A stretch of 64,000 bases of DNA from Bosea sp. NBC_00550 (GTDB lineage: Bacteria; Pseudomonadota; Alphaproteobacteria; Rhizobiales; Beijerinckiaceae): NCBI RefSeq assembly GCF_026020075.1, contig NZ_CP102772.1, positions 2,728,001 through 2,792,000 on the forward strand, given 5' to 3'. Of this stretch, positions 12,388 to 25,284 are shown one piece after another. Position 1 is the first letter of the stretch. Each line of letters begins with the position of its first letter. Below the pieces are notes generated by a model. That model searched no databases. It was not told the origin of the DNA and was given only the letters and a program-made list of their open reading frames with translations. The position numbers and the translations under genes were made by a program.

Positions 12388-12848
12388 GCAGGGCCTCACG
12401 CGATAACATGGCCCAGCCCTCAGCGTCGGGCCTGGCCGACGAGGTGGCCACCTTGGCGAGCCTCGGCTTCGATGAGCTGCGGGCCCGCTTTCGCCGGCTG
12501 TATCGCACGGCCGCTCCGGCCGGCCTGTCGCGCGATCTGATCGCGCGGCTGGTCGCCCATCGGCTGCAGGAGCAGCAGCTCGGCAAGCTTGATGATGAAC
12601 TGGCGCGACACCTGGCGAAGCTGGCGCGGGGCCAGGAAACCCGACGACGCATCAAGACCGGCTCAGTCCTGGTCCGCGAGCACGACGGCGTCAACCATGA
12701 GGTCGTGATCGTGCCCGGCGGCTTCCTCTGGAATGGCGAGACACATCGCAGTCTCTCGACACTGGCCAAGCGGATTACAGGGACCACCTGGAACGGACCA
12801 CGCTTCTTCGGATTGCGGCAGCGGCAGGCCGCGAGGGCCACCCCATGA
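12384..12848 (+). CDS. DUF2924 domain-containing protein
   Basis: Protein of 154 residues. The family pattern is visible: an N-terminal helical part (LGFDELRARFRRLYRTAAPAG, then SRDLIARLVAHRLQE) and a C-terminal half with GSVLVREHDGVNHEVVIV, GGFLWNGETHRSLSTLAKRI and TGTTWNGPRFFGL. The latter resembles a small strand-rich DNA-associated fold (RAMA-like). Translation is coupled to both neighbours by 4-base overlaps. Role unknown; probably an accessory or regulator of the recombinase. Confidence 0.85.
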   Translation: MSRASRDNMAQPSASGLADEVATLASLGFDELRARFRRLYRTAAPAGLSRDLIARLVAHRLQEQQLGKLDDELARHLAKLARGQETRRRIKTGSVLVREHDGVNHEVVIVPGGFLWNGETHRSLSTLAKRITGTTWNGPRFFGLRQRQAARATP

Positions 12849-14335
12849 TCCGCGAGCCGGCAACAAGGCCGCAGCGCTGCGCGATCTACACGCGCAAGTC
12901 GACCGAGCATAATCTCGATCTCGCCTTTAACTCGCTCGATGCCCAAAGAGAGGCCTGCGAGGCCTATATCAAGAGCCAGGCCCATGAAGGCTGGAGCCTC
13001 ATCGGTGATCGCTATGACGATGGCGGCTTGTCTGGCGCATCCTTGCAGCGCCCTGCCCTGCAGCAGCTGCTCGATGCGGTCCGCGCAAGGCGCATCGACA
13101 TCATCGTCGTCTACAAGGTCGATCGCCTGACGCGCTCGCTCGCTGACTTCGCCAAGCTGGTCGAGCTCTTCGATGAGCACGGCGTCTCCTTCGTCTCGGT
13201 CACCCAGTCCTTCAACACGACAACGAGCATGGGCAGGCTGACGCTCAACGTCCTGCTCTCCTTCGCCCAGTTCGAACGCGAGGTCATCGGCGAGCGCGTT
13301 CGCGACAAGATCGCGGCGTCCAAGACCAAAGGGCTTTGGGTCGGCGGACCGGTCCCGCTGGGCTATCGCAGCGAGAAGAAGCAACTCGTCATCGTCGAGC
13401 AGGAGGCTGCGCTGGTGCGTCGCATCTTCCAGCTTTATCTCGATCTCGGCTCGGTCGGAGCGGTGGCCGAGACCCTGGGTCGTGAGGGCATCGTCACCAG
13501 ACTGGGTCATCGCTTCCGTGTCGGCATGCTCGCCCATCTGCTCAAGAACCGCTTCTATCTCGGCGAGATCGTCTGGCACGGCGTCTCACATCGTGGTGCC
13601 CATGTACCGATTGTCACGGTCGAGATCTTCGACGCCGTTCAACGGCACCTCGCTGCGGCCGCCATCGAGCGCAAGGGACGATCGGCGAACTCAGCCTTTA
13701 CGCTTGCGGGTCTGCTGCATGACGATGCGGGCAACCGGATGAGCCCGAGCCATGCCCGCAAGAACGGGGCGCGGTATCGCTACTATGTCTCGCAGGCGCT
13801 GATCCAGCATCGCAAGGCTCAAGCCGGATCCATTGCCCGGATCTCGGCTCCCGAGATCGAAGCCGCTGTGTTGGCCGCAACTCCCAATCCTGCTCAGATC
13901 GCGCGCGTCACCCTGCACCGAGATTGTCTGATCATCGCGCTCCAGTCTCCCGATGATGCTGGCGAGCCCAGCACGACAAAGATTCCCTTCGCCTGGCAGC
14001 CTCAGGGTCGGCGCAAGGGCGTCGCGCATGAGCCCACGCAGAAGCCCCGGCTCGATCATGATTCCGCGGAGGCGATCCTGACCATGATTGCTCAGGCGAG
14101 ACGCTGGATGGCGCAGCTGATCGATGGCTCGATGGCCTCGACCGATGAGATCGCGATCCGCGAAGGTGTGGGCGAACGCAATATCCGCAAGCTGCTGCCG
14201 CTGGCCTGCCTCTCGCCAAACATCATCCGCGCCATCGCCGATGGCACTGCGCCCGCCAATCTGACGATCAGTCGGCTCTCCGCAGCCCTGCCTCACGACT
14301 GGGCGAGCCAGGAGCACCGCATCCTCGTTCACTGA
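12845..14335 (+). CDS. large serine recombinase (site-specific resolvase/integrase)
   Basis: Recombinase of 496 residues. The N-terminal catalytic domain has the nucleophile Ser19 in AIYTRKSTE and the arginines in VYKVDRLTRSLADF and FEREVIGERVRDKI. The recombinase domain follows (WVGGPVPLGYR near residue 172). The C-terminal part carries a helix-rich DNA-binding region but an incomplete cysteine-type zinc ribbon. Length fits large serine integrases. It overlaps the DUF2924 stop and is followed by a terminator at 14362. Likely acts on a nearby attachment site, possibly connected with the tRNA genes 300-500 bp downstream. Confidence 0.92.
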   Translation: MIREPATRPQRCAIYTRKSTEHNLDLAFNSLDAQREACEAYIKSQAHEGWSLIGDRYDDGGLSGASLQRPALQQLLDAVRARRIDIIVVYKVDRLTRSLADFAKLVELFDEHGVSFVSVTQSFNTTTSMGRLTLNVLLSFAQFEREVIGERVRDKIAASKTKGLWVGGPVPLGYRSEKKQLVIVEQEAALVRRIFQLYLDLGSVGAVAETLGREGIVTRLGHRFRVGMLAHLLKNRFYLGEIVWHGVSHRGAHVPIVTVEIFDAVQRHLAAAAIERKGRSANSAFTLAGLLHDDAGNRMSPSHARKNGARYRYYVSQALIQHRKAQAGSIARISAPEIEAAVLAATPNPAQIARVTLHRDCLIIALQSPDDAGEPSTTKIPFAWQPQGRRKGVAHEPTQKPRLDHDSAEAILTMIAQARRWMAQLIDGSMASTDEIAIREGVGERNIRKLLPLACLSPNIIRAIADGTAPANLTISRLSAALPHDWASQEHRILVH

Positions 14336-15746: not shown

Positions 15747-16208
15747 ATGTTCGAATGGCTCAAGATTCGCAAGGCGCGCCGCATGGCCCATGCCGCGATC
15801 GACCCCTTCCTGCATCGCGATCCCAGCGGGACCGCGACATGCCAGGCCGGTGACTGGCTTCATCCCCAGATCATCGGCTTCCTCGCAACGCTTGTCACGC
15901 TGATTGCCCAGCGTCATTGCGGCCCGATGCGCACGCATGCCCTCGCAGCGGTTCAATCCGATGTCCTGAACGCCGTCACGGGAATTGGCCCAGAGCTCAT
16001 CGGCGAGGAAATCTGCCTGCTCAGCAGCCGCGAGGATCCGGCCTTTGCAGCCGGCGCCCGCGGTGCCGTCGCCTTCCTCGAAGCGCTGCGCCCAGCCAGC
16101 CAGCTTGACGAGATCGACGAGCCCGTACTGCAGGCCGATCCCTCGCTTCAGCGGCTTTGGGAAGAACATGTCGATCAATGCCTCCGCCGCAGTCCCCGGC
16201 CCCTATAG
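15747..16208 (+). CDS. hypothetical protein
   Basis: Unrecognised protein of 153 residues without membrane segments or signal peptide. It starts MFEWLKIRKARRMAHAA (ATG 15747, behind a G-rich stretch) and looks helical, with a cysteine-containing middle. The gene is divergent from the R-x4-H protein and convergent with the broken IS1595-like gene. No partner or function can be inferred beyond its place in an accessory block. Confidence 0.6.
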   Translation: MFEWLKIRKARRMAHAAIDPFLHRDPSGTATCQAGDWLHPQIIGFLATLVTLIAQRHCGPMRTHALAAVQSDVLNAVTGIGPELIGEEICLLSSREDPAFAAGARGAVAFLEALRPASQLDEIDEPVLQADPSLQRLWEEHVDQCLRRSPRPL

Positions 16209-16862
16209 GCAACGGCGCCGAAGTATGGCGCGCCGTCCCTCTGCCAGTGGAGGCCACCCTCTTCCCATCAGCCGTCAGCGCAATCCATCGTCGTCAGCAG
16301 TCCTTTTTCGCTCCGCAGGCTGATCGAACAGGCCCAACTCGAGCTGTTGCTCGAACCTGCCCTCCTCCGGCTCGGTGTCCACGCCGGAACTCCGCAGCAA
16401 CCGGTTCAAAGCCTGGAGGAAGACAGTGTCATCGAGACGGTGCGTCGCGCTCGCGGTAACCGCAAGGAAACGCTCGTAGCGCGCCTTGCAGACGGCCTGC
16501 CCCGGCCGGGGCGGCGCGGAGCTACTCGGAAAGGGCTCTCGCACGACGCGGTCGACAACGCTTTCGCCAGGCCATGAATTCGGCAGATCCTTCGCGGTTT
16601 CCAGGCCGGCCGCGATCTTCGTCTTGAGATGCCAGGCGGTCCGGACGGACACGCCGAGTATCTGGCCCAGCCTCTGCGAACCGATACGCTCGCCGGTCGC
16701 GGTCAGCAGATAGAGCGCCTGCAGCCAGACATGCATCGGCACATGGCTGTTCTGAAAGATCGTGCCATGCCTCACGGTGAAGGGCTTGCGACAGGCATAG
16801 CACTTCCACATTCCGACGGGTGTGCTCAGCCCGCTCAGGCGGCCAAGCCGACAGCTTTCGCT

Positions 16863-18089
16863 GGCGGGCTCAACTGATCGCCGCAACACACTCGGCGAAC
16901 CTCTCGGCTGGGGTTTGATAGAGCAAGGTCTTTCTGGGCCGTTCGTTGAGCTGACGGGCGATGGCGCTGAGCTGGGCCTGGCTTTGCAGGGACAGGTCGG
17001 TTCCGTGGGGAAGATACTGGCGCAGGAGCCGGTTGGTGTTCTCGTTCGAGCCACGTTGCCAGGGTGACCTGGGATCGCAGAAGTAGACCTCGACGTTCGA
17101 AGCGAGGGCCAGCCGCTTGTGGTCGGCCAACTCCTTGCCTCGGTCCCAGGTCAGGGACTGATAGAGTTCGCCGGGCAGTTTCTTCGACTGTTTGATCAGG
17201 GCGGTGATGACGCTCCCGGTGTCTTTGTTGGCGACCTTGACCAGCATCACGTAGCGCGAATGCCGCTCGACCAGCGTGGCGACGTAGCTGTTCCGGGAGC
17301 CGCCGATCAGGTCGCCTTCCCAGTGACCAGGGACCGCACGATCCTCGACGGAGGCCGGCCTTTCGCTGATGGAGACGGCGTCCCTGATCTGGCCCAGGCC
17401 GTTCCGCTTCAGGCTGGCGTGCCGGGAGCGGCGGATCGTTCGCCGGGCCCTCAGGTGGTCCAGCAGTTCCTTCTTCAGCACCCCACGGGTCTGGATGAAC
17501 AGGCTGCGGTAGATCGTCTCGTGCGACACTTGATTGTGTGGCTCCCGGGGGCAGGTGCGCTTGAGCCAGCCGGCGATCTGCTCGGGCGACCAGTTCCGCT
17601 GCAGCTTGCCGGATACTGTCCGGGCCAGACCGGGTCGGCAAGCCAGCTTGCACGGCTTGGGACGCAAGGCCCGGTCCCAGGCCGCCTGATCGGAGCGCGC
17701 CGCGCGGTAGCGATCCGGCCCGCCGTTGCGCTGAACCTCGCGACTGACCGTGGACGGTGATCGGCCCAATTGCCGAGCGATCACGCGCAGCGACCGGCGG
17801 GTGCTGAGCCCTCGGGAGATTTCCTCCCGCTCGCTGAGAGTGAGCGCCCGCGGCGCCCGCCGCCGGTCTGGAGGCCGAATGCCGCCCGTCGGCGAAAGCA
17901 CCGAGAACACCGAAGAGGACTCCCGATCGAACCGCCGCCCAATCGAACTCATCGACTCGCCGGCCTTCCAGCGATCCCAGATCTCAGCCCGCTGGGCCGC
18001 CGAATAGTAGATCCGCCGCCGCTGCATCATCACCCACGCTCCATCTCCAAAGGAAAAGTAGCGTGTTGCGATTACCGATTGAGACCACC
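16863..18089 (-). mobile_element. IS30-family insertion sequence, complete (~1227 bp)
   Basis: Ends are marked by imperfect inverted repeats: GGCGGGCTCAA...CGCAACACACT entering from 16863 and, on the opposite strand, GGTGGTCTCAA...CGCAACACGCT entering from 18089. The same dinucleotide CT lies outside each end (16861-16862 and 18090-18091), matching the short target duplication typical of the family. One intact transposase fills the element. Excising it restores the interrupted host frame, which fixes the boundaries well. Confidence 0.88.
16870..18030 (-). CDS. IS30-family transposase
   Basis: Transposase of 386 residues, start at ATG 18030 (MMQRRRIYYSAAQRAEIWDR). The N-terminus has an IS30-type HTH followed by LTLSEREEISRGLS and SLRVIARQLGRSPSTVSREV. 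The DDE core shows HWEGDLIGG (first D), LTWDRGKEL (second D) and the E in RGSNENTNRLLRQYLP, all in register. It appears intact and possibly active. The stop lies just inside the left inverted repeat. Confidence 0.95.
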   Translation of the reverse strand: MMQRRRIYYSAAQRAEIWDRWKAGESMSSIGRRFDRESSSVFSVLSPTGGIRPPDRRRAPRALTLSEREEISRGLSTRRSLRVIARQLGRSPSTVSREVQRNGGPDRYRAARSDQAAWDRALRPKPCKLACRPGLARTVSGKLQRNWSPEQIAGWLKRTCPREPHNQVSHETIYRSLFIQTRGVLKKELLDHLRARRTIRRSRHASLKRNGLGQIRDAVSISERPASVEDRAVPGHWEGDLIGGSRNSYVATLVERHSRYVMLVKVANKDTGSVITALIKQSKKLPGELYQSLTWDRGKELADHKRLALASNVEVYFCDPRSPWQRGSNENTNRLLRQYLPHGTDLSLQSQAQLSAIARQLNERPRKTLLYQTPAERFAECVAAIS

Positions 18090-18184
18090 CTGCAATGCGG
18101 ACAGACAGGTCCGTCGCGCCAGACCAACGTCTCGAGCGAGAGGAAGGCGGCCTGTTCGTCGTGCATGCGGACGGCGTTGGGCAT

Positions 18185-18745
18185 AGCCAATCTCCGGCGC
18201 ACAGGGCACCAGCCTTTACCAAGCCACCTCCTGGGTCATGAAAAATCAATGAACCGGTTAACGCAGGGTAACGATTCAGCACATTGACCCAACAGCCCCT
18301 TCGTGGCTGTTTATAGACACCAAGCAGCATTCAGGAAAGAAAAAATACTGAACTCGAATTTGCCTGCTTAGATTCATAGAGCGATCGAATTCAGCAATCC
18401 GATGGAATCGGATTTCCATAATATCGGATAATTATAGAATTAATCCTTCAACGCGACATTTCTCGCGAACGATAACTATTGAATTCAACAAACTTTAATC
18501 GTCAAAATACATAAAATACTTCTTAAAATCCAAACTTATTACCGAAATAACAACTACATAGGAGGCATAAATGGATTAAATCAGATCGGATAACATCGAA
18601 AATTGGATGTATATCGTTACGCTAGACGGTATCCATCCTTGTAAACCGCATAAAACCAATCGACATCGCTGAAACCGGACCGCGCACCGCAGAAGAGAGG
18701 CGCACCGGACCGCATCGATGTCTCCTGAACGCACAGGAGCGTGTC
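18185..18745. other. AT-rich leader upstream of the secretion locus
   Basis: About 560 bases without a gene. From 18240 on, the DNA becomes far more AT-rich than the rest of the window, with many TTAA, AATT and TATA tracts. Within it are a hairpin (AACAGCC at 18291 with GGCTGTT to 18311), a perfect palindrome at 18396-18414, and at about 18560 a good AGGAGG followed by ATG GAT TAA, a two-codon mini-frame. It ends in an AGGAGCG ribosome-binding site for the repeat protein at 18746. The composition suggests acquired DNA, and a silencing or regulatory role. Confidence 0.7.
18396..18414. promoter_or_regulatory. perfect inverted repeat in the AT-rich leader
   Basis: AATCCGAT and ATCGGATT are exact reverse complements separated by GGA. 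It could be a dimeric operator about 330 bp upstream of the repeat-protein gene; no protein can be assigned. Confidence 0.4.
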
Positions 18746-19618
18746 ATGGGTAGCCACAACAATCCGCAGCCTTCGCACCACGACGACGACAACGACCCGA
18801 CACAGGGCCAGTTGCAGGGCCAGGCCGAGTTGCAGGGTCAGCTCCAGGGTCAGGCCGAGCTTCAGGGCCAGGGACAGGGTCAAGGCCAGGGACAGGGCCA
18901 AGGTCAAGGCCAGGGTCAGTCCCAGGGTCAGTCGCAGTATGCCGGCCAGGTCGCCGCGCAGGCCGTCGACACCGACGTCTGGAATTCCGCCAGCAACGCC
19001 AATGAAAACGGCAACCTGAACGGCAACGGAAATCTCAACGCCAACGGCAACCTGAACGGCAACGTCAACTATAACGAGCTGGACAATCAGGTTACCAACC
19101 AGGTCGACAACTGCGTGAATGTCTCCGTCAACGTCGACCTCAGCCTCGAAGGTGCAATCACCGGGCCGCAGGACAACGAAGCGATCGACATCGACTCGAT
19201 CTACGGCATCACCGATTCCATCGTGATGCCCGACGTGGTCACTCAGAACGTCTATGAGGGCAACAACTTCAATATCGATCAGATCAACAACCTGACCGAT
19301 AACGACACCCTCAGCGGCGCCTCGGTGAGCTACAGCTCCGGCGGTGTCTCCGATGCGTGCTGCTGGGATCCGTGCGGCTCCGACGCGAACTCGGTCGGCG
19401 ACTTCACCATGACCGCGACCGCCACCGGCGGCAGCGCGAGCTCCAGCCTCGGCGCGCTTACCAGCGACGATGGCGACTTCGGCGGCGCCGGCGCGGCTTC
19501 GGCTGCAGCCTCGCTCACGCAGGAAGCCTTCACCCAGTCGATCGTTCAGGGTGCGAACATCCAGTTCAACTCGATCGAGATGACTGTGGGCAGCGGGGAC
19601 GCTCTCGACTCCCTGTAA
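18746..19618 (+). CDS. Gln-Gly repeat protein, putative type I secretion substrate
   Basis: Acidic, low-complexity protein of 290 residues, not recognised from any named family. Residues ~20-65 are a Q-G repeat (LQGQ, AELQGQ, then a run of GQ pairs). Residues ~88-115 are an Asn-rich stretch (GNLNGN, NANGN). Then come Val/Asn/Asp-rich beta-type sequence and a Ser/Gly/Ala-rich tail. NFNIDQINNLTDNDTL near residue 175 matches the Q-x-N-x-L-x-D-x-D module of the next gene. Four cysteines occur. No N-terminal signal peptide and no RTX nonapeptides. The ATG has an AGGAGCG ribosome-binding site. The position upstream of a type I secretion system suggests export and a surface or matrix role (inference). 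Confidence 0.75.
   Translation: MGSHNNPQPSHHDDDNDPTQGQLQGQAELQGQLQGQAELQGQGQGQGQGQGQGQGQGQSQGQSQYAGQVAAQAVDTDVWNSASNANENGNLNGNGNLNANGNLNGNVNYNELDNQVTNQVDNCVNVSVNVDLSLEGAITGPQDNEAIDIDSIYGITDSIVMPDVVTQNVYEGNNFNIDQINNLTDNDTLSGASVSYSSGGVSDACCWDPCGSDANSVGDFTMTATATGGSASSSLGALTSDDGDFGGAGAASAAASLTQEAFTQSIVQGANIQFNSIEMTVGSGDALDSL
18800..18940 (+). repeat. hexanucleotide CAGGGY tandem array encoding (QG)n
   Basis: About twenty copies of CAGGGC, CAGGGT, CAAGGC or GGACAG-type hexamers in one frame encode Gln-Gly dipeptides, interspersed early on with GCCGAGCTT or GAGTTG (AEL). Synonymous third-base variation shows selection on the dipeptide. The array could change length in units of two residues by slippage. 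Confidence 0.85.
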
Positions 19619-19638
19619 GCACTGTCCGAAGCGAAGCG

Positions 19639-19664
19639 ACCGCGCGGGGCCCTCCCCGCGCGGT
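19639..19664 (+). terminator. strong hairpin between the two repeat-protein genes
   Basis: ACCGCGCGGGG (19639-19649) pairs perfectly with CCCCGCGCGGT (19654-19664) around a CCCT loop, followed by only TTT. It lies 20 bases after the first stop codon. It may act as a partial terminator or 3' stabiliser so that the first protein is made in excess. Confidence 0.65.
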
Positions 19665-19750
19665 TTCCGCTCCCGCCTTCCCCTTTCTGCGCGCCATGCG
19701 TTTGAAGTGTTCCCGTCCGGTGCGAGCTGGACGCGGCGGAGGATCGTGCC

Positions 19751-21745
19751 ATGCAGCCCGGCGGCTTCACCGAAACGATCTGGCAATTCATCGGCTATCT
19801 GGATCTGTCCGACTCCGTCGCCCGGACGCCGGTGTTCTATGACGGTGAGGCGCCACCGCCGTTTATACCCGAGGACCTCGATCCGTTCCGGGAGCCGCTC
19901 CGCGGGCTTGCCTTCGACGAACTCGTTTCGGTTCCAACGACGGTTCGCGAAATGCCGGCACCGGACCCGCACAGCAGTTTTACACCTTTATCGATGCCGG
20001 CCAGATTCGGCGTGCCCAGCAAGATTCTGCCCGTCGTTCCACAGCCCCTGAAGCCGATCCCGCATAATGCCGAGGACATCGGATCTTCGGTGGGCTTCCG
20101 CTCCGCTCAGCGCGAAATCACCGTCGAGTATCGCGACGCCGACGGCGAGGGTCTGTATCAGATCAAGCAGATCAACGTCGCGAGCGACCAGGATCTCATA
20201 ACATCCGATGCGATCACCTATGCCGACGGCAGCGTCGTGATCCCGGCTGAACTGCATCTGGAGGGCGAATTCGCTTCGCTCATCGATCGGGCCGACGATA
20301 TCGCCCCCGCCGGCATCCCCGACATGACCGCGGCGCTCCAGATCGGAACCGACGACGTCATCGCCATGGTGTCGGCTCGCGACGCGCTCTGGGCCGAGAC
20401 GGGCAACCCGAATCCGGACGGCAGCCCCGCTGAGACCGCCCCGCAAGGCCGCATTATCGATGGCGTTGCCGGCGCGCCCGAACCTTACGCGCCGACCTTG
20501 CTGGACAGCGCACCCTGGCGCCCGGACGAGCCGCCGGCCCAGACCAGCACAACGGCGACGCTCGATGCCGCGGGGCCCACCGGCGGCGTGGCGACGCTCG
20601 CCGAGACCGGTCTCAACAAACAGATCAATGCCGCGGAGATCGTCGACCTCAACGAGGGGGTCGGCTCCATGATGGTCGGCGGGGACTACTTCTACAGCCG
20701 CGGCATCGTGCAGGCGAACATCCTGGTCGACAATGACCATGTCGACATCGCCGTCTCCGGCACTCTCGACCCCGTCGTGAAGACGCAGGGCAACGAGGTT
20801 CACAACATCGCGGAGTTCATCACGCATCAATCGACGATCGACGTGCGCGGTGCGGCCGGGACGTCTCACTGGGTCGTCGATGTCCTGTCGGGCGATTTCT
20901 ACGACGTGAAAGCGATCGTCCAGTTCAACGGTCTCGACGACAACGATCGGACGGTTCAAAGCGAGTCCGGCGTCTATTACAATCTCGGGACCGGCGGAAA
21001 CGAGCAGATCAATCTGACGAAGATTTACGGCATAGCCGATTACGACATCATCATCATCGGCGGAAACTACCATCGCGCCGACTGGATCTACCAGTACAAC
21101 ATCATGCTGGATCCCGATTCAGCCAAGCTCTACAGCACCGGCGGCGAAGAAGACGGCACGACCGTCACGACCGGTTTCAACAGCCTGACCAACAAGGCCA
21201 CGATCGCGAGCTACGACGCGCCGGCCTTCAAGCCGATGCTCGACGCCCATCACGAACTGATCGATCAGCTTGCCGGCGGCGCAACCATCCTCGCCCCGGA
21301 CGCCGACTGGCACTTCTACGGTGGTGCCTCGGGCACGCTGAAGATTCTCTACGTCGCGGGCGATTACTACGACGCCAACGTCATCACGCAGGTCAACTTC
21401 CTCATCGACGGCGATCAGAGCATTCAGGCCAGCGCGCATGCGGACACCGAACAAGGTGTGGCCGCAGGCGGCAACAGCGCGCTCAACGAAGCCTACATCG
21501 TCGACCCCGGGCTGCTGTCGACCTCCAATTATCTCGGCGGCGAGGCCTATGAAGAATCCGTGCTGATCCAGGTCAACATCGTCACCGACAGCGACACGGT
21601 GAAGATTCATGACACCAGCACGCTCGTCCCCGAGCTCGTCGCCTTCGCTGAACAGGCCACCAATGAGCCTGAGCCCGAATGCCGGCACGTCAATGTGCCG
21701 GACCCGGCACAGCACGACCATCTGACGTCGAACATCATGGTTTGA
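19751..21745 (+). CDS. large modular repeat protein, putative type I secretion exoprotein
   Basis: Protein of 664 residues, not recognised. The start at 19751 follows GGAGG. There is no signal peptide and no membrane segment. From residue ~310 on, a module repeats about every 60-100 residues: GGDYFYSRGIVQANIL-DND (~310), SGDFYDVKAIVQFNGL-DND (~379), GGNYHRADWIYQYNIM-DPD (~437), AGDYYDANVITQVNFL-DGD (~536), GGEAYEESVLIQVNIV-DSD (~596). A diverged copy, YQIKQINVASDQD, lies near 140. Asn-containing linkers such as GNEQINLTKI recur between modules. The regular Asp/Asn positions suggest a beta-solenoid or calcium-binding surface array (inference). It directly precedes the ABC exporter. Confidence 0.8.
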   Translation: MQPGGFTETIWQFIGYLDLSDSVARTPVFYDGEAPPPFIPEDLDPFREPLRGLAFDELVSVPTTVREMPAPDPHSSFTPLSMPARFGVPSKILPVVPQPLKPIPHNAEDIGSSVGFRSAQREITVEYRDADGEGLYQIKQINVASDQDLITSDAITYADGSVVIPAELHLEGEFASLIDRADDIAPAGIPDMTAALQIGTDDVIAMVSARDALWAETGNPNPDGSPAETAPQGRIIDGVAGAPEPYAPTLLDSAPWRPDEPPAQTSTTATLDAAGPTGGVATLAETGLNKQINAAEIVDLNEGVGSMMVGGDYFYSRGIVQANILVDNDHVDIAVSGTLDPVVKTQGNEVHNIAEFITHQSTIDVRGAAGTSHWVVDVLSGDFYDVKAIVQFNGLDDNDRTVQSESGVYYNLGTGGNEQINLTKIYGIADYDIIIIGGNYHRADWIYQYNIMLDPDSAKLYSTGGEEDGTTVTTGFNSLTNKATIASYDAPAFKPMLDAHHELIDQLAGGATILAPDADWHFYGGASGTLKILYVAGDYYDANVITQVNFLIDGDQSIQASAHADTEQGVAAGGNSALNEAYIVDPGLLSTSNYLGGEAYEESVLIQVNIVTDSDTVKIHDTSTLVPELVAFAEQATNEPEPECRHVNVPDPAQHDHLTSNIMV

Positions 21746-21774
21746 AGCAAGAAGAACGAGACGGGGTAAGGGGC

Positions 21775-23895
21775 ATGAGCGAGAAGAACGAAGCATCGCC
21801 ATCCGCGGCGCCCCTGGCCGGCCCTGCCTCGGTGCGGATGGTCGGCTTGCCGCAGGCTGTCGGGCTGGCCGCCGTCAAGGTCGAGGGCACCGCCAATGCC
21901 AACAGCCGGATTTCTCTGGTCCCGGCCGGCGCGCCCGCATCGCTGCCGCAGCCGGCCGCTCCCCACGACCCGACTCTCCCCCAGGAAACCGCGCCCCAAA
22001 GCCGCGCAGAACACAGCGAAGCCCGCATCGACGGACAGCCGGCATCCGATGTCGTCACGCTGCGTCCGAAAGTGGATTCACAGCCTCCGAAAACGGCCCT
22101 CGAGGGCGGCCGCGGCAGCAAGGGGCCAGGCGGCGGAGGAGGCGGTGGCGGATCGGGAGGTGGAACGCCTATCGAGCAACGGCTCGGTGATCGCGACTTC
22201 AAGCAGGTTCTCGGCGCGGGCCTCGGCGGCACACGGCACAACCTGACGGTCGTCGCGCTGTTCTCGATCGTGGTGAACACGCTCGTCCTCGCCGTGCCGA
22301 TCTATCTCTTCCAGATGTCGGACCGCGTGCTGACGAGCCGCAGCGTCGATACGCTGGTGATGCTCTCGGTCATCGTCATGGTGGCGATCGGAGCCCATGT
22401 GCTGCTCGACATGGTGCGCCGCTTCATGCTGATGCGCGTCGCGGTCGATGTCGAAACCCGGCTTGGCGGGCCGGTGCTCGCGGCCGCCGCCAAGGCCGCC
22501 CAGACGGGCTCCAGCCGCGAATTCCAGACGCTCGCCGATCTGCAGCAGATCCGCAGCTTCCTGACCGGTCCGGTCATCCTCACCATGCTCGATGCACCGA
22601 CCGCGCCGATCTATCTGCTGGCGGTCTACCTGATCCATCCGCATCTCGGCTACATCGTGACCGTCGCGTCGGTCGTGCTGTTCCTGGTCGCCTATCTCAA
22701 CCAGCAGATCACGGCCGCGCCCTTCGCACGAGCCAGTGCGTTTTCGACCCGCGCGAATCTGCAATCGGAAGCGATGTCCCGCAACGCGCAGGTCATCAAC
22801 GCCATGGGCATGATCCCGGAGGGCGTCGTGATGTGGGGGCGCGAGACGGCGGAATCCCTCAAGGCGCAGGTCAGCGCGCAGGATCGCAACATCCTGATGA
22901 CCGGTACCTCCAAGTTCTTCCGCCTGGGAACGCAGGTGGCGATGCTGGGCTGGGGCGCGATGCTCTCGCTCGAAGGCCAGTTGACGGGCGGCATGGTGGT
23001 CGCGTCCTCCGTCGTCGCCGGCCGCGCCCTTGCCCCGCTGGAAGGCACCATCGAAGGCTGGCGCAGCTTCATCCATGCGCGCGCCGCCTATCAGCGCGTC
23101 AAGGCGCTGCTCCAGGCCTCGCCGCTCAACCTCGACCGGCTGAAGCTGCCGAACCCCAAGGGCCGGCTCGATGTCGAGCGCGTTCTCTACGTTCCGCCGC
23201 CGAACAAGAAGGTCATCCTCAACGGCATCAGCTTCAGCCTGGAGCCGGGGGATTCCCTCGCCATCGTCGGCGCTTCCGGCTGCGGCAAGTCGACCCTGGC
23301 GCGCATGCTGGTCGGCTCGATCAACCCGACCGCCGGCACCGTCCGGCTAGACCGGATGGAGCAGCGCAACTGGGATCCGCGCCAGTTCGGCGAAAGCGTC
23401 GGCTACCTGCCGCAGGACGTTCAGCTCTTTCCGGCCTCGATCAAGGCCAACATCGCCCGCATGCGCGACGATGTCGCCGACGCGGATGTCTTCGAAGCCG
23501 CAGAGATCGCCGACATCCACGAGATGATCGCCCAGTTCGCCCATGGCTACGAGACACAGATCGGCATCGACGGCGCTCCCCTCTCGGGCGGGCAGAAGCA
23601 GAGGCTGGGCCTGGCGCGGGCCTTCTTCGGCAATCCGCGGCTCGTGGTGCTCGACGAGCCCAACTCCAATCTCGACGCACTGGGCGAGGCCGCCCTCGCT
23701 CGCGCTTTCGAGCGGGCCAAGTCTCGCGGCATGACGGTGGTCGCCGTGACGCAGCGCCCTGCCCTGCTCCGCAGCGTGGACAAGATCATGATGATCAAGG
23801 ACGGCGCGGTTCAGGCCATCGGGGCACGCGACGAAATCCTGCCGATGATCGTTGGACAGCGCAGCATCGATGGCGGCGCGCCCAAGCCACACTGA
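21775..23895 (+). CDS. type I secretion system permease/ATPase (PrtD family)
   Basis: Inner-membrane ABC exporter of 706 residues. Residues 1-135 are an unusual Pro/Ala/Gly-rich extension ending in a poly-Gly stretch. The membrane domain follows (hydrophobic helices from ~150, for example TVVALFSIVVNTLVLAVPIY). The nucleotide-binding domain has Walker A GASGCGKST (~499), signature LSGGQKQR (~603) and Walker B LVVLDEP with catalytic Glu (~623). At the switch position it reads AVTQRP: Gln660 replaces the usual histidine. It starts 29 bases after the exoprotein stop with a TAAGGGG ribosome-binding site. The partner adaptor gene follows; the outer-membrane TolC-like channel is not in the window. 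Confidence 0.92.
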   Translation: MSEKNEASPSAAPLAGPASVRMVGLPQAVGLAAVKVEGTANANSRISLVPAGAPASLPQPAAPHDPTLPQETAPQSRAEHSEARIDGQPASDVVTLRPKVDSQPPKTALEGGRGSKGPGGGGGGGGSGGGTPIEQRLGDRDFKQVLGAGLGGTRHNLTVVALFSIVVNTLVLAVPIYLFQMSDRVLTSRSVDTLVMLSVIVMVAIGAHVLLDMVRRFMLMRVAVDVETRLGGPVLAAAAKAAQTGSSREFQTLADLQQIRSFLTGPVILTMLDAPTAPIYLLAVYLIHPHLGYIVTVASVVLFLVAYLNQQITAAPFARASAFSTRANLQSEAMSRNAQVINAMGMIPEGVVMWGRETAESLKAQVSAQDRNILMTGTSKFFRLGTQVAMLGWGAMLSLEGQLTGGMVVASSVVAGRALAPLEGTIEGWRSFIHARAAYQRVKALLQASPLNLDRLKLPNPKGRLDVERVLYVPPPNKKVILNGISFSLEPGDSLAIVGASGCGKSTLARMLVGSINPTAGTVRLDRMEQRNWDPRQFGESVGYLPQDVQLFPASIKANIARMRDDVADADVFEAAEIADIHEMIAQFAHGYETQIGIDGAPLSGGQKQRLGLARAFFGNPRLVVLDEPNSNLDALGEAALARAFERAKSRGMTVVAVTQRPALLRSVDKIMMIKDGAVQAIGARDEILPMIVGQRSIDGGAPKPH

Positions 23896-23943
23896 CAAAA
23901 CCGGCATTCGAAGCCGGGGGCGACGAGGGAACGGAGTGGGGAA

Positions 23944-25284
23944 ATGGCAGGGCAGCTGATATCGCAAACCTGGTATGCCGACGTGCCGCGCAGTACCCGC
24001 ACGGCGACGCTGAGCGGCGTCGTCATCGTCGTCGCGACGGTCATGGGCTTCGGCGTCTGGGGCAACACGGCCCCGATCGCCGGCGCGGTCATCGCGACGG
24101 GCGTGTTCGTCACCACCGGCCAGAACAAGACGATCCAGCATCTGGAAGGCGGGGTGATCCGCGAGATCCTCGTCCATGAGGGCGACGTGGTCCATGTCGG
24201 CCAACCCCTGGTCAAGCTCGAAGACACCTCCTCCCGCGCCGAATTGCGCCGCCACGAGCTCAAGCTCTTCCGTCTGGAGGCGATCGAGGCGCGGCTCCGG
24301 GCGGAGGTCGTCGGCCGAACCGACTTCTCCTTCCCCCAGCATCTGGTCGACAGAGCCAACGACCCCGACATCGCCGTGCTTATCGCGGCGCAGCGGATCG
24401 CCTTCCGGGCGCGGCAGAACAATATCGCGAGCGAAATCGCCGCCCATCAGAAGAGCATCGACGCGCTTGAGGAGAAAGTCACCGGCAGCAAGGTGCAGCT
24501 CGCGGGAGTCCATCAGCAATCGCTGCTGCTGAAGGAGGAACTCGAAGGCAAGCAGGCGCTGCTTCAGCGCGGCTACATCCGCAAGCCCGACGTGCTCTCG
24601 CTCCAGCGTCTTGCCGCGAACCTCACCGGCGAGGCCGGGCGCATCACCGGCGATATCGGCGATTCCCGCGAGCGGATCGCCCGCTCGCTGGAGCAGATCG
24701 ACGGCGTCCGCAAGAACGCCCAGAAGATCGCCTCCGACCAGTTGCAGGAGATCAGCGCCGAACTCAACGACGTGCGCGAGCGCATCCACACCGTGAAAGG
24801 TATCCTGGACCGCTCGAACATCGTCGCTCCGGTCAAGGGAACGGTCGTCAAGCTGCGCTATCACACGGCCGGCGGCGTCATCGAAGCCGGCAAGAACATC
24901 ATGGAGATCGTTTCGCTGCAGGATGAGCTCATCATCGAGGCGCGCGTGCGTCCGCAGGACATCGACAAGATCAAGCACAGCCAGCTCGCCACGGTTCGGC
25001 TCACCGCCCTCAATCAGCGCACCACCCCGATGGTCAGCGGCCGCGTCATCTACATCTCCGCCGACGCGCTGCCGGACGAGAAGCAGCGCGCCTATCCCGG
25101 CGTACCGGATCTCTATGTCGTGCGCGCCCGCCTCGACCCGAAGAGCTTGGCCGGCGTCCACGACTTCCAGCCGACCGCGGGCATGCCTGCCGACGTCTAC
25201 ATCCAGACGACCGAGAGGACCTTCTTCGAGTATCTTCTGCAGCCGCTCAAGGACAGCATGGCGCGCGCCTTCCGCGAAACCTGA
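23944..25284 (+). CDS. type I secretion periplasmic adaptor (HlyD family)
   Basis: Membrane-fusion protein of 446 residues linking the ABC exporter to an outer-membrane channel. It has a single transmembrane helix near residues 21-42, a lipoyl half-motif (QHLEGGVIREILVHEGDVVH) at ~64-85, a long coiled coil between ~95 and 290, the second lipoyl half (NIVAPVKGTVVKLRYHT) near 296, and a C-terminal beta-barrel domain ending YLLQPLKDSM. The HlyD/PrtE signature fits well. It starts 48 bases after the exporter stop and is the last gene of the locus. Confidence 0.92.
   Translation: MAGQLISQTWYADVPRSTRTATLSGVVIVVATVMGFGVWGNTAPIAGAVIATGVFVTTGQNKTIQHLEGGVIREILVHEGDVVHVGQPLVKLEDTSSRAELRRHELKLFRLEAIEARLRAEVVGRTDFSFPQHLVDRANDPDIAVLIAAQRIAFRARQNNIASEIAAHQKSIDALEEKVTGSKVQLAGVHQQSLLLKEELEGKQALLQRGYIRKPDVLSLQRLAANLTGEAGRITGDIGDSRERIARSLEQIDGVRKNAQKIASDQLQEISAELNDVRERIHTVKGILDRSNIVAPVKGTVVKLRYHTAGGVIEAGKNIMEIVSLQDELIIEARVRPQDIDKIKHSQLATVRLTALNQRTTPMVSGRVIYISADALPDEKQRAYPGVPDLYVVRARLDPKSLAGVHDFQPTAGMPADVYIQTTERTFFEYLLQPLKDSMARAFRET

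Follow-up and report, generated by a model that had tools for sequence, protein, structure and literature searches.

A conserved PrtD/HlyD-type locus of Bosea and other Alphaproteobacteria with two candidate structural proteins

A 64-kb window of DNA from Bosea sp. NBC_00550, to whose positions all coordinates below refer, contains a locus in which the genes for two proteins, P1 and P2, precede those for a PrtD-type ATP-binding cassette (ABC) exporter and a HlyD-type periplasmic adaptor (Table 1). These genes recur in other genomes as a conserved operon whose parts are inherited together. We consider it probable, at roughly 60%, that the locus encodes a dedicated type I secretion system that exports P1 and P2 as structural proteins of a surface coat or matrix. 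The locus is common, with 526 places encoding a relative of its upstream neighbour, P0, at one genome per species. No described function or role was found for it in the literature (open-licence papers). Should its product prove to be a surface matrix, Alphaproteobacteria would have here a widespread matrix or adhesion system that has gone unstudied, and the type I export of self-assembling proteins would gain a test case.

Conservation of the operon and its exporter

An earlier sequence-only reading had described four genes in a row, and the row is present as four open reading frames (ORFs) on one strand, with the order and coordinates that it gave. Its link to the exporter has also held up, and the repetitive, non-enzymatic character that it gave the candidate substrates fits the present results. 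It had drawn the locus too small: with the split regulator gene, a small conserved ORF and P0 included, the locus begins at approximately 15136. Purine-rich stretches resembling ribosome-binding sites are visible by eye upstream of all four starts. The longest exporter ORF opens at 21679 and overlaps P2; the ATG at 21775, which gives a protein of 706 amino acids (aa), is the more likely start. The exporter scores 695.7 bits against TIGR01842 (PrtD; cut-off 510.15) and the adaptor 365.2 bits against TIGR01843 (cut-off 208.65). The 6.27-Mb host genome has one P2 match and five PrtD proteins above the cut-off.

The two candidate substrates had not been recognised by the earlier reading, and neither passes a curated family cut-off. 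For P2, scans of Pfam and NCBIfam gave nothing at E up to 1, and Pfam still gave nothing at E up to 10. P1 has low-complexity matches only, far under the cut-offs (EBNA2_Core in Pfam, E 0.2; ser_rich_anae_1 in NCBIfam, E 0.57). The RTX nonapeptide pattern GGxGxD, which was said to be lacking, has 0 matches in either protein. No signal peptide was seen by eye in P1 or P2, and the family scans matched no known enzyme domain in them.

The gene order is P2, PrtD, HlyD in all 33 loci found with a profile of P2. Genes were called mechanically by script as the longest ORFs, and the 33 loci come from 28 of the 30 P2-positive genomes of the order, four plasmid records and the window. The two remaining P2-positive genomes are one whose locus is split over contigs and that of the window itself. 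The profile matches 30 of 297 genomes of the order (20 of 117 genera). Among genomes sampled from the class it matches 4 of 387, and among those sampled from the phylum 8 of 328, each of the eight being a member of the class (the host genome is counted in both samples). Relatives of P2 number 90, and Bosea accounts for most of those with an organism name. Annotated relatives from Shinella, Sinorhizobium and Rhodobacter have the same gene order with a LuxR-type regulator upstream; the Sinorhizobium PrtD gene is unannotated, yet present as an ORF.

A P1-type gene is recognised by profile in 26 of the 33 loci. Among the other seven, the genomes of two match the P1 module beside P2 in a six-frame search, and a third (L012) has a P1-like C-terminus visible by eye. 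A tblastn search of the plasmids with P1 gave no match. Across the order the C-terminal module of P1 occurs in 25 of 297 genomes, every one of which is P2-positive (hypergeometric 9.5e-32, uncorrected for relatedness). P0 occurs in 29 of the 297, sharing 27 genomes with P2 (1.0e-32, likewise uncorrected). P2 stands without P0 in three genomes (G099, G242 and G262), each a weak P2 match, and P0 without P2 in two (G238 and, as a weak match, G292). There are 288 relatives of P1, of which the best 120 are listed. Of 7997 candidates scored, 2937 are relatives of P0 at E up to 1e-5 (the best 120 are listed), and the nearest P0 relatives are also from Bosea.

The best 80 of the 526 P0 matches provided 79 fetched loci, which are not a random sample and overlap the 33-locus set in some genomes (for example L067 and L211). 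They span Bosea, Bradyrhizobium, Afipia, Nitrobacter, Microvirga, Methylorubrum, Aureimonas, Pseudovibrio and others, and Methylorubrum aminovorans and Bosea thiooxidans are among the species that carry the locus. A P2 match is present in 75, the P1 module in 74, and the whole set of P0, P1, P2, PrtD and HlyD in 64. Three of the 75 P2 matches are fragments, two at the end of the fetched DNA (L158 and L200) and one a remnant (L188). P2, PrtD and HlyD lie on one strand in 66 of the 79 loci. A gap test is passed by 63 of the 66, with median gaps of 30 and 28 bases; the other three have the same order and fail solely through over-long ORF calls.

Several loci weigh against the reading preferred here. 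Four of the 79 have no P2 match (L149, L150, L197 and L202); the contig of L150 measures 4.2 kb, and L197 is close to the end of its contig. In L188, from Afipia birgiae, P0 and P1 are kept beside a P2 remnant of 75 aa, with no operon-type exporter in 20.5 kb; this is a decaying copy of the locus. The P2 gene of L059 is broken into three ORFs, and P0 is missing from the fetched flanks of L068, L069 and L070. Orthologues lying mostly away from type I secretion genes were looked for in this survey and not found, and the only trace of P2 whose long flank lacks an operon-type exporter is the L188 remnant.

A maximum-likelihood tree was built from 54 PrtD proteins, 35 from operon copies and 19 paralogues. 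The paralogues come from 15 fetched non-operon loci and four of the host genome, are not all of the paralogues that exist, and include several long branches. A branch with support 100/100 separates all 35 operon proteins from the 19 paralogues. The divergent P2-PrtD-HlyD loci L068, L069 and L070 are the first to branch off within the operon group. A Gly-rich linker before the membrane domain is found in 27 of 47 scorable operon proteins and in 0 of 18 paralogues (scoring was not possible for 22 of 69 operon proteins and 1 of 19 paralogues). The earlier link between P1, P2 and the exporter pair was drawn from proximity and order. It is now well supported because the order is conserved, the genomes that carry the genes coincide closely and the exporters form a single group.

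Table 1. Features of the locus and their positions in the 64-kb window
Feature	Coordinates	Strand	Description
P0	15136..15702	-	188 aa; TLNTTRAR and RNxxxH motifs; conserved neighbour, co-inherited with P2
Small conserved ORF	15747..16208	+	153 aa; relatives in 49 of the 75 P2-containing loci (jackhmmer or phmmer)
Split putative regulator gene, 3' part	16275..16860	-	IS1595-type zinc ribbon and helix-turn-helix-like region (by eye)
Putative IS30-type insertion	16860..18087 (ends approximate)	transposase on -	about 1.2 kb, inside the zinc-ribbon gene; HTH_38 and rve domains
Split zinc-ribbon gene, 5' part	18088..18202 (approximate)	-	
P1	18746..19618	+	290 aa; N-terminal part Gln/Gly-rich, then Asn/Gly-rich low-complexity; conserved C-terminal module with TQEAFTQSIVQGANIQFNS
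P2	19751..21745	+	664 aa repeat protein; I.Q.N....D.D motif six times; C-terminus DHLTSNIMV
PrtD-type ABC exporter	21775..23895	+	Gly-rich N-terminal extension; TIGR01842
HlyD-type periplasmic adaptor	23944..25284	+	TIGR01843

P1 and P2 compared with known exported proteins

The P1 proteins range from 227 to 1610 aa across loci and are duplicated in six (L063, L065, L066, L183, L185 and L204). Their C-terminal module is kept while the remaining sequence varies, as is expected of type I substrates. The P1 proteins of Pseudovibrio (1198-1610 aa) carry 7-11 copies of the core motif, mostly spaced by about 130-142 residues in the one protein examined; the module is therefore considered structural as well as terminal. 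Two Pseudovibrio exalbescens genomes (L192/L206 and L195/L209) each carry the system twice, and the P1 of one copy is long and modular (1525-1567 aa). P1 alone gave no confident predicted fold.

P2 is a repeat protein whose length hardly changes across most loci. The Gln residues of its main motif, at 140, 321, 391, 448, 547 and 607, occupy columns that are invariant in 17 of 17 aligned relatives. The motif patterns were composed after the sequences had been viewed; every one of 73 P2 proteins contains the main one 3-7 times, whereas shuffled copies average 0.50 occurrences and reach at most 4. Asn follows the fixed Gln in 87% of the copies, though the pattern does not require it. GxNxxxNxAxI, a second motif, is present 1-5 times, compared with 0.016 in shuffled sequences. 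The predicted model of P2 is chiefly of beta strands with few helices (mean predicted local distance difference test score, pLDDT, 71.6; predicted template-modelling score, pTM, 0.70; 453 of 664 residues at a pLDDT of at least 70). The repeats above chance and the predicted beta fold fit the earlier description of a repetitive, non-enzymatic protein. Most P2 C-termini keep an Asp followed by hydrophobic residues, and PrtD-type export signals are similar acidic-hydrophobic C-termini.

A stretch resembling I.Q.N....D.D is shared by P1 and P2. In hhalign the two proteins gave a probability of 2.8 (E 0.016), and the P2 repeat model matched one P1 among 8274 ORFs, at E 3.5. Because these scores are weak, no homology of P1 and P2 is claimed.

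We infer export of both proteins, a division of labour between them, a matrix function, a mode of regulation and a role for P0. PrtD, HlyD and a TolC-type outer-membrane protein, the last presumably encoded elsewhere, would carry P1 and P2 out of the cell in a single step, and the conserved C-termini of both substrates would be used for export. Outside the cell P2, the constant beta-repeat protein, would be a scaffold or nucleator, and P1, the fast-changing, low-complexity modular protein, would make up most of the coat or matrix on the surface. Regulation of the locus would fall to a LuxR-type or zinc-ribbon protein, and P0 may be a cytoplasmic helper.

The exporter and adaptor resemble those of known PrtD/HlyD type I systems in passing the curated cut-offs, and the candidate substrate genes adjoin the exporter as they do there. 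The system differs in that its candidate substrates are non-RTX and of no known family, and in that its exporters form a separate group, often with the Gly-rich N-terminal linker. The PrsD-PrsE exporter of Rhizobium, which exports the Rap adhesins, is described as an alphaproteobacterial type I exporter of adhesion or matrix proteins (PMC4018554). The present locus likewise pairs such an exporter with candidate matrix substrates; in the Pfam scans it differs by the lack of matches in P2 and the low-complexity matches only of P1.

The functional amyloids CsgA (curli) and FapC (Fap) offer another comparison, as they share short repeats with Gln and Asn. In a Foldseek search of solved structures with the P2 model, FapC and CsgA chains took the first two places among 46 matches and accounted for 4 of the first 11. 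These matches were below significance, and chains of SufB/SufD, endoglin, ice-binding proteins and pectate lyase stood among them. No Pfam family, curlin included, matched P2 or three P1 relatives at E up to 10, and the window P1 had only the EBNA2_Core match in Pfam. The profiles of P2 and P1 matched neither FapC nor CsgA among PDB sequences. Nothing credible came from sequence searches of solved structures with P2, its profile, a long P1 or the P1 profile, and a fold search against viral models gave a best E of 0.0031. The fold matches of P2 to FapC and CsgA are weak, and sequence homology to them was not found. We tentatively raise, as a doubtful extension, that the locus specifies an undescribed class of amyloid-like extracellular fibre in Alphaproteobacteria, with P2 as a beta-solenoid subunit and P1 as a modular Q/N-rich polymer. 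Curli and Fap proteins take a route different from type I export, and this class would rely on the dedicated type I exporter with no curli or Fap pore; the co-inherited HEPN-like P0 would tie assembly or expression to the cytoplasm.

P1 might instead be the sole exported polymer, with P2 remaining at the exporter or envelope as a nucleator, a cap or a partner in export. The steady length of P2 beside a P1 that varies several-fold and is duplicated in some loci would suit this arrangement. We regard it as unlikely, since the acidic-hydrophobic C-terminus of P2 is mostly conserved and its repeats resemble those of extracellular structural proteins. A coat of the RTX kind, S-layer-like or calcium-binding, would explain the Asp positions that recur in P2, and S-layer and RTX proteins are served by PrtD-type exporters; without the RTX nonapeptide in P1 or P2 and without a Pfam match for P2, such a coat is very improbable. 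Export of both P1 and P2 as structural proteins is the reading that we prefer.

P0, the regulators and the insertion

The RNxxxH motif is present in 79 of 79 P0 ORFs, and R116, N117 and H121 are invariant in 28 of 28 aligned. We take this motif to be that of HEPN proteins. No curated family cut-off is passed by P0. Its match to HEPN_Cthe2314 (E 0.036, 1 of 12 members) is weaker than that to the unrelated, sub-threshold WD40_alt (E 0.00053, 2 of 12), and in PADLOC it has a marginal Csx1 match (E 0.012, 1 of 3). P0 is possibly HEPN-like. A locus for competition or defence, in which an exported P1 acts on other cells and P0 is a ribonuclease or protective partner, would accord with the constant RNxxxH motif and the high variability of P1, but is the least likely explanation of all given the weak HEPN support, the marginal Csx1 match, the conservation of P0 itself (mean column identity 45%) and the lack of any known effector domain in P1 relatives (Pfam). 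Reyranella soli (L201 and L202) has three P0 genes, and the fetched flank of the one in L202 contains no P2. The small ORF beside P0 has no Pfam match at E 0.001 and no NCBIfam match at E 1.

The relatives of the zinc-ribbon gene encode 127-261 aa, and Zn_ribbon_IS1595 was found in three of the four scanned; the part in the window matches NF033547 at E 9.1e-06, below the cut-off. In Bosea sp. NBC_00550 this gene is split by an insertion sequence, which we take to be of IS30 type and in which terminal repeats were looked for and none found. Four loci of the Bosea group (L137 and L139-L141) align on both sides of the site with the flanks adjoining, and regulation of the locus may therefore be altered in this strain. 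Among the 75 loci with P2, 21 have only the zinc-ribbon gene, 35 only a LuxR-type gene, one has both and 18 have neither (some being cut short). This distribution suggests that zinc-ribbon and LuxR-type proteins are alternative regulators.

The largest cluster of neighbouring ORFs looked like antisense artefacts and was set aside. Upstream of the locus, positions 12845-14335 of the window encode a large serine recombinase with Resolvase and Recombinase domains. A protein with GNAT (Acetyltransf_6) and TPR domains is a frequent neighbour, encoded for example at 13161-14717 of L046, with relatives in L012, L050, L051, L057, L058 and L059; its domains were scanned with Pfam in L046 and L050.
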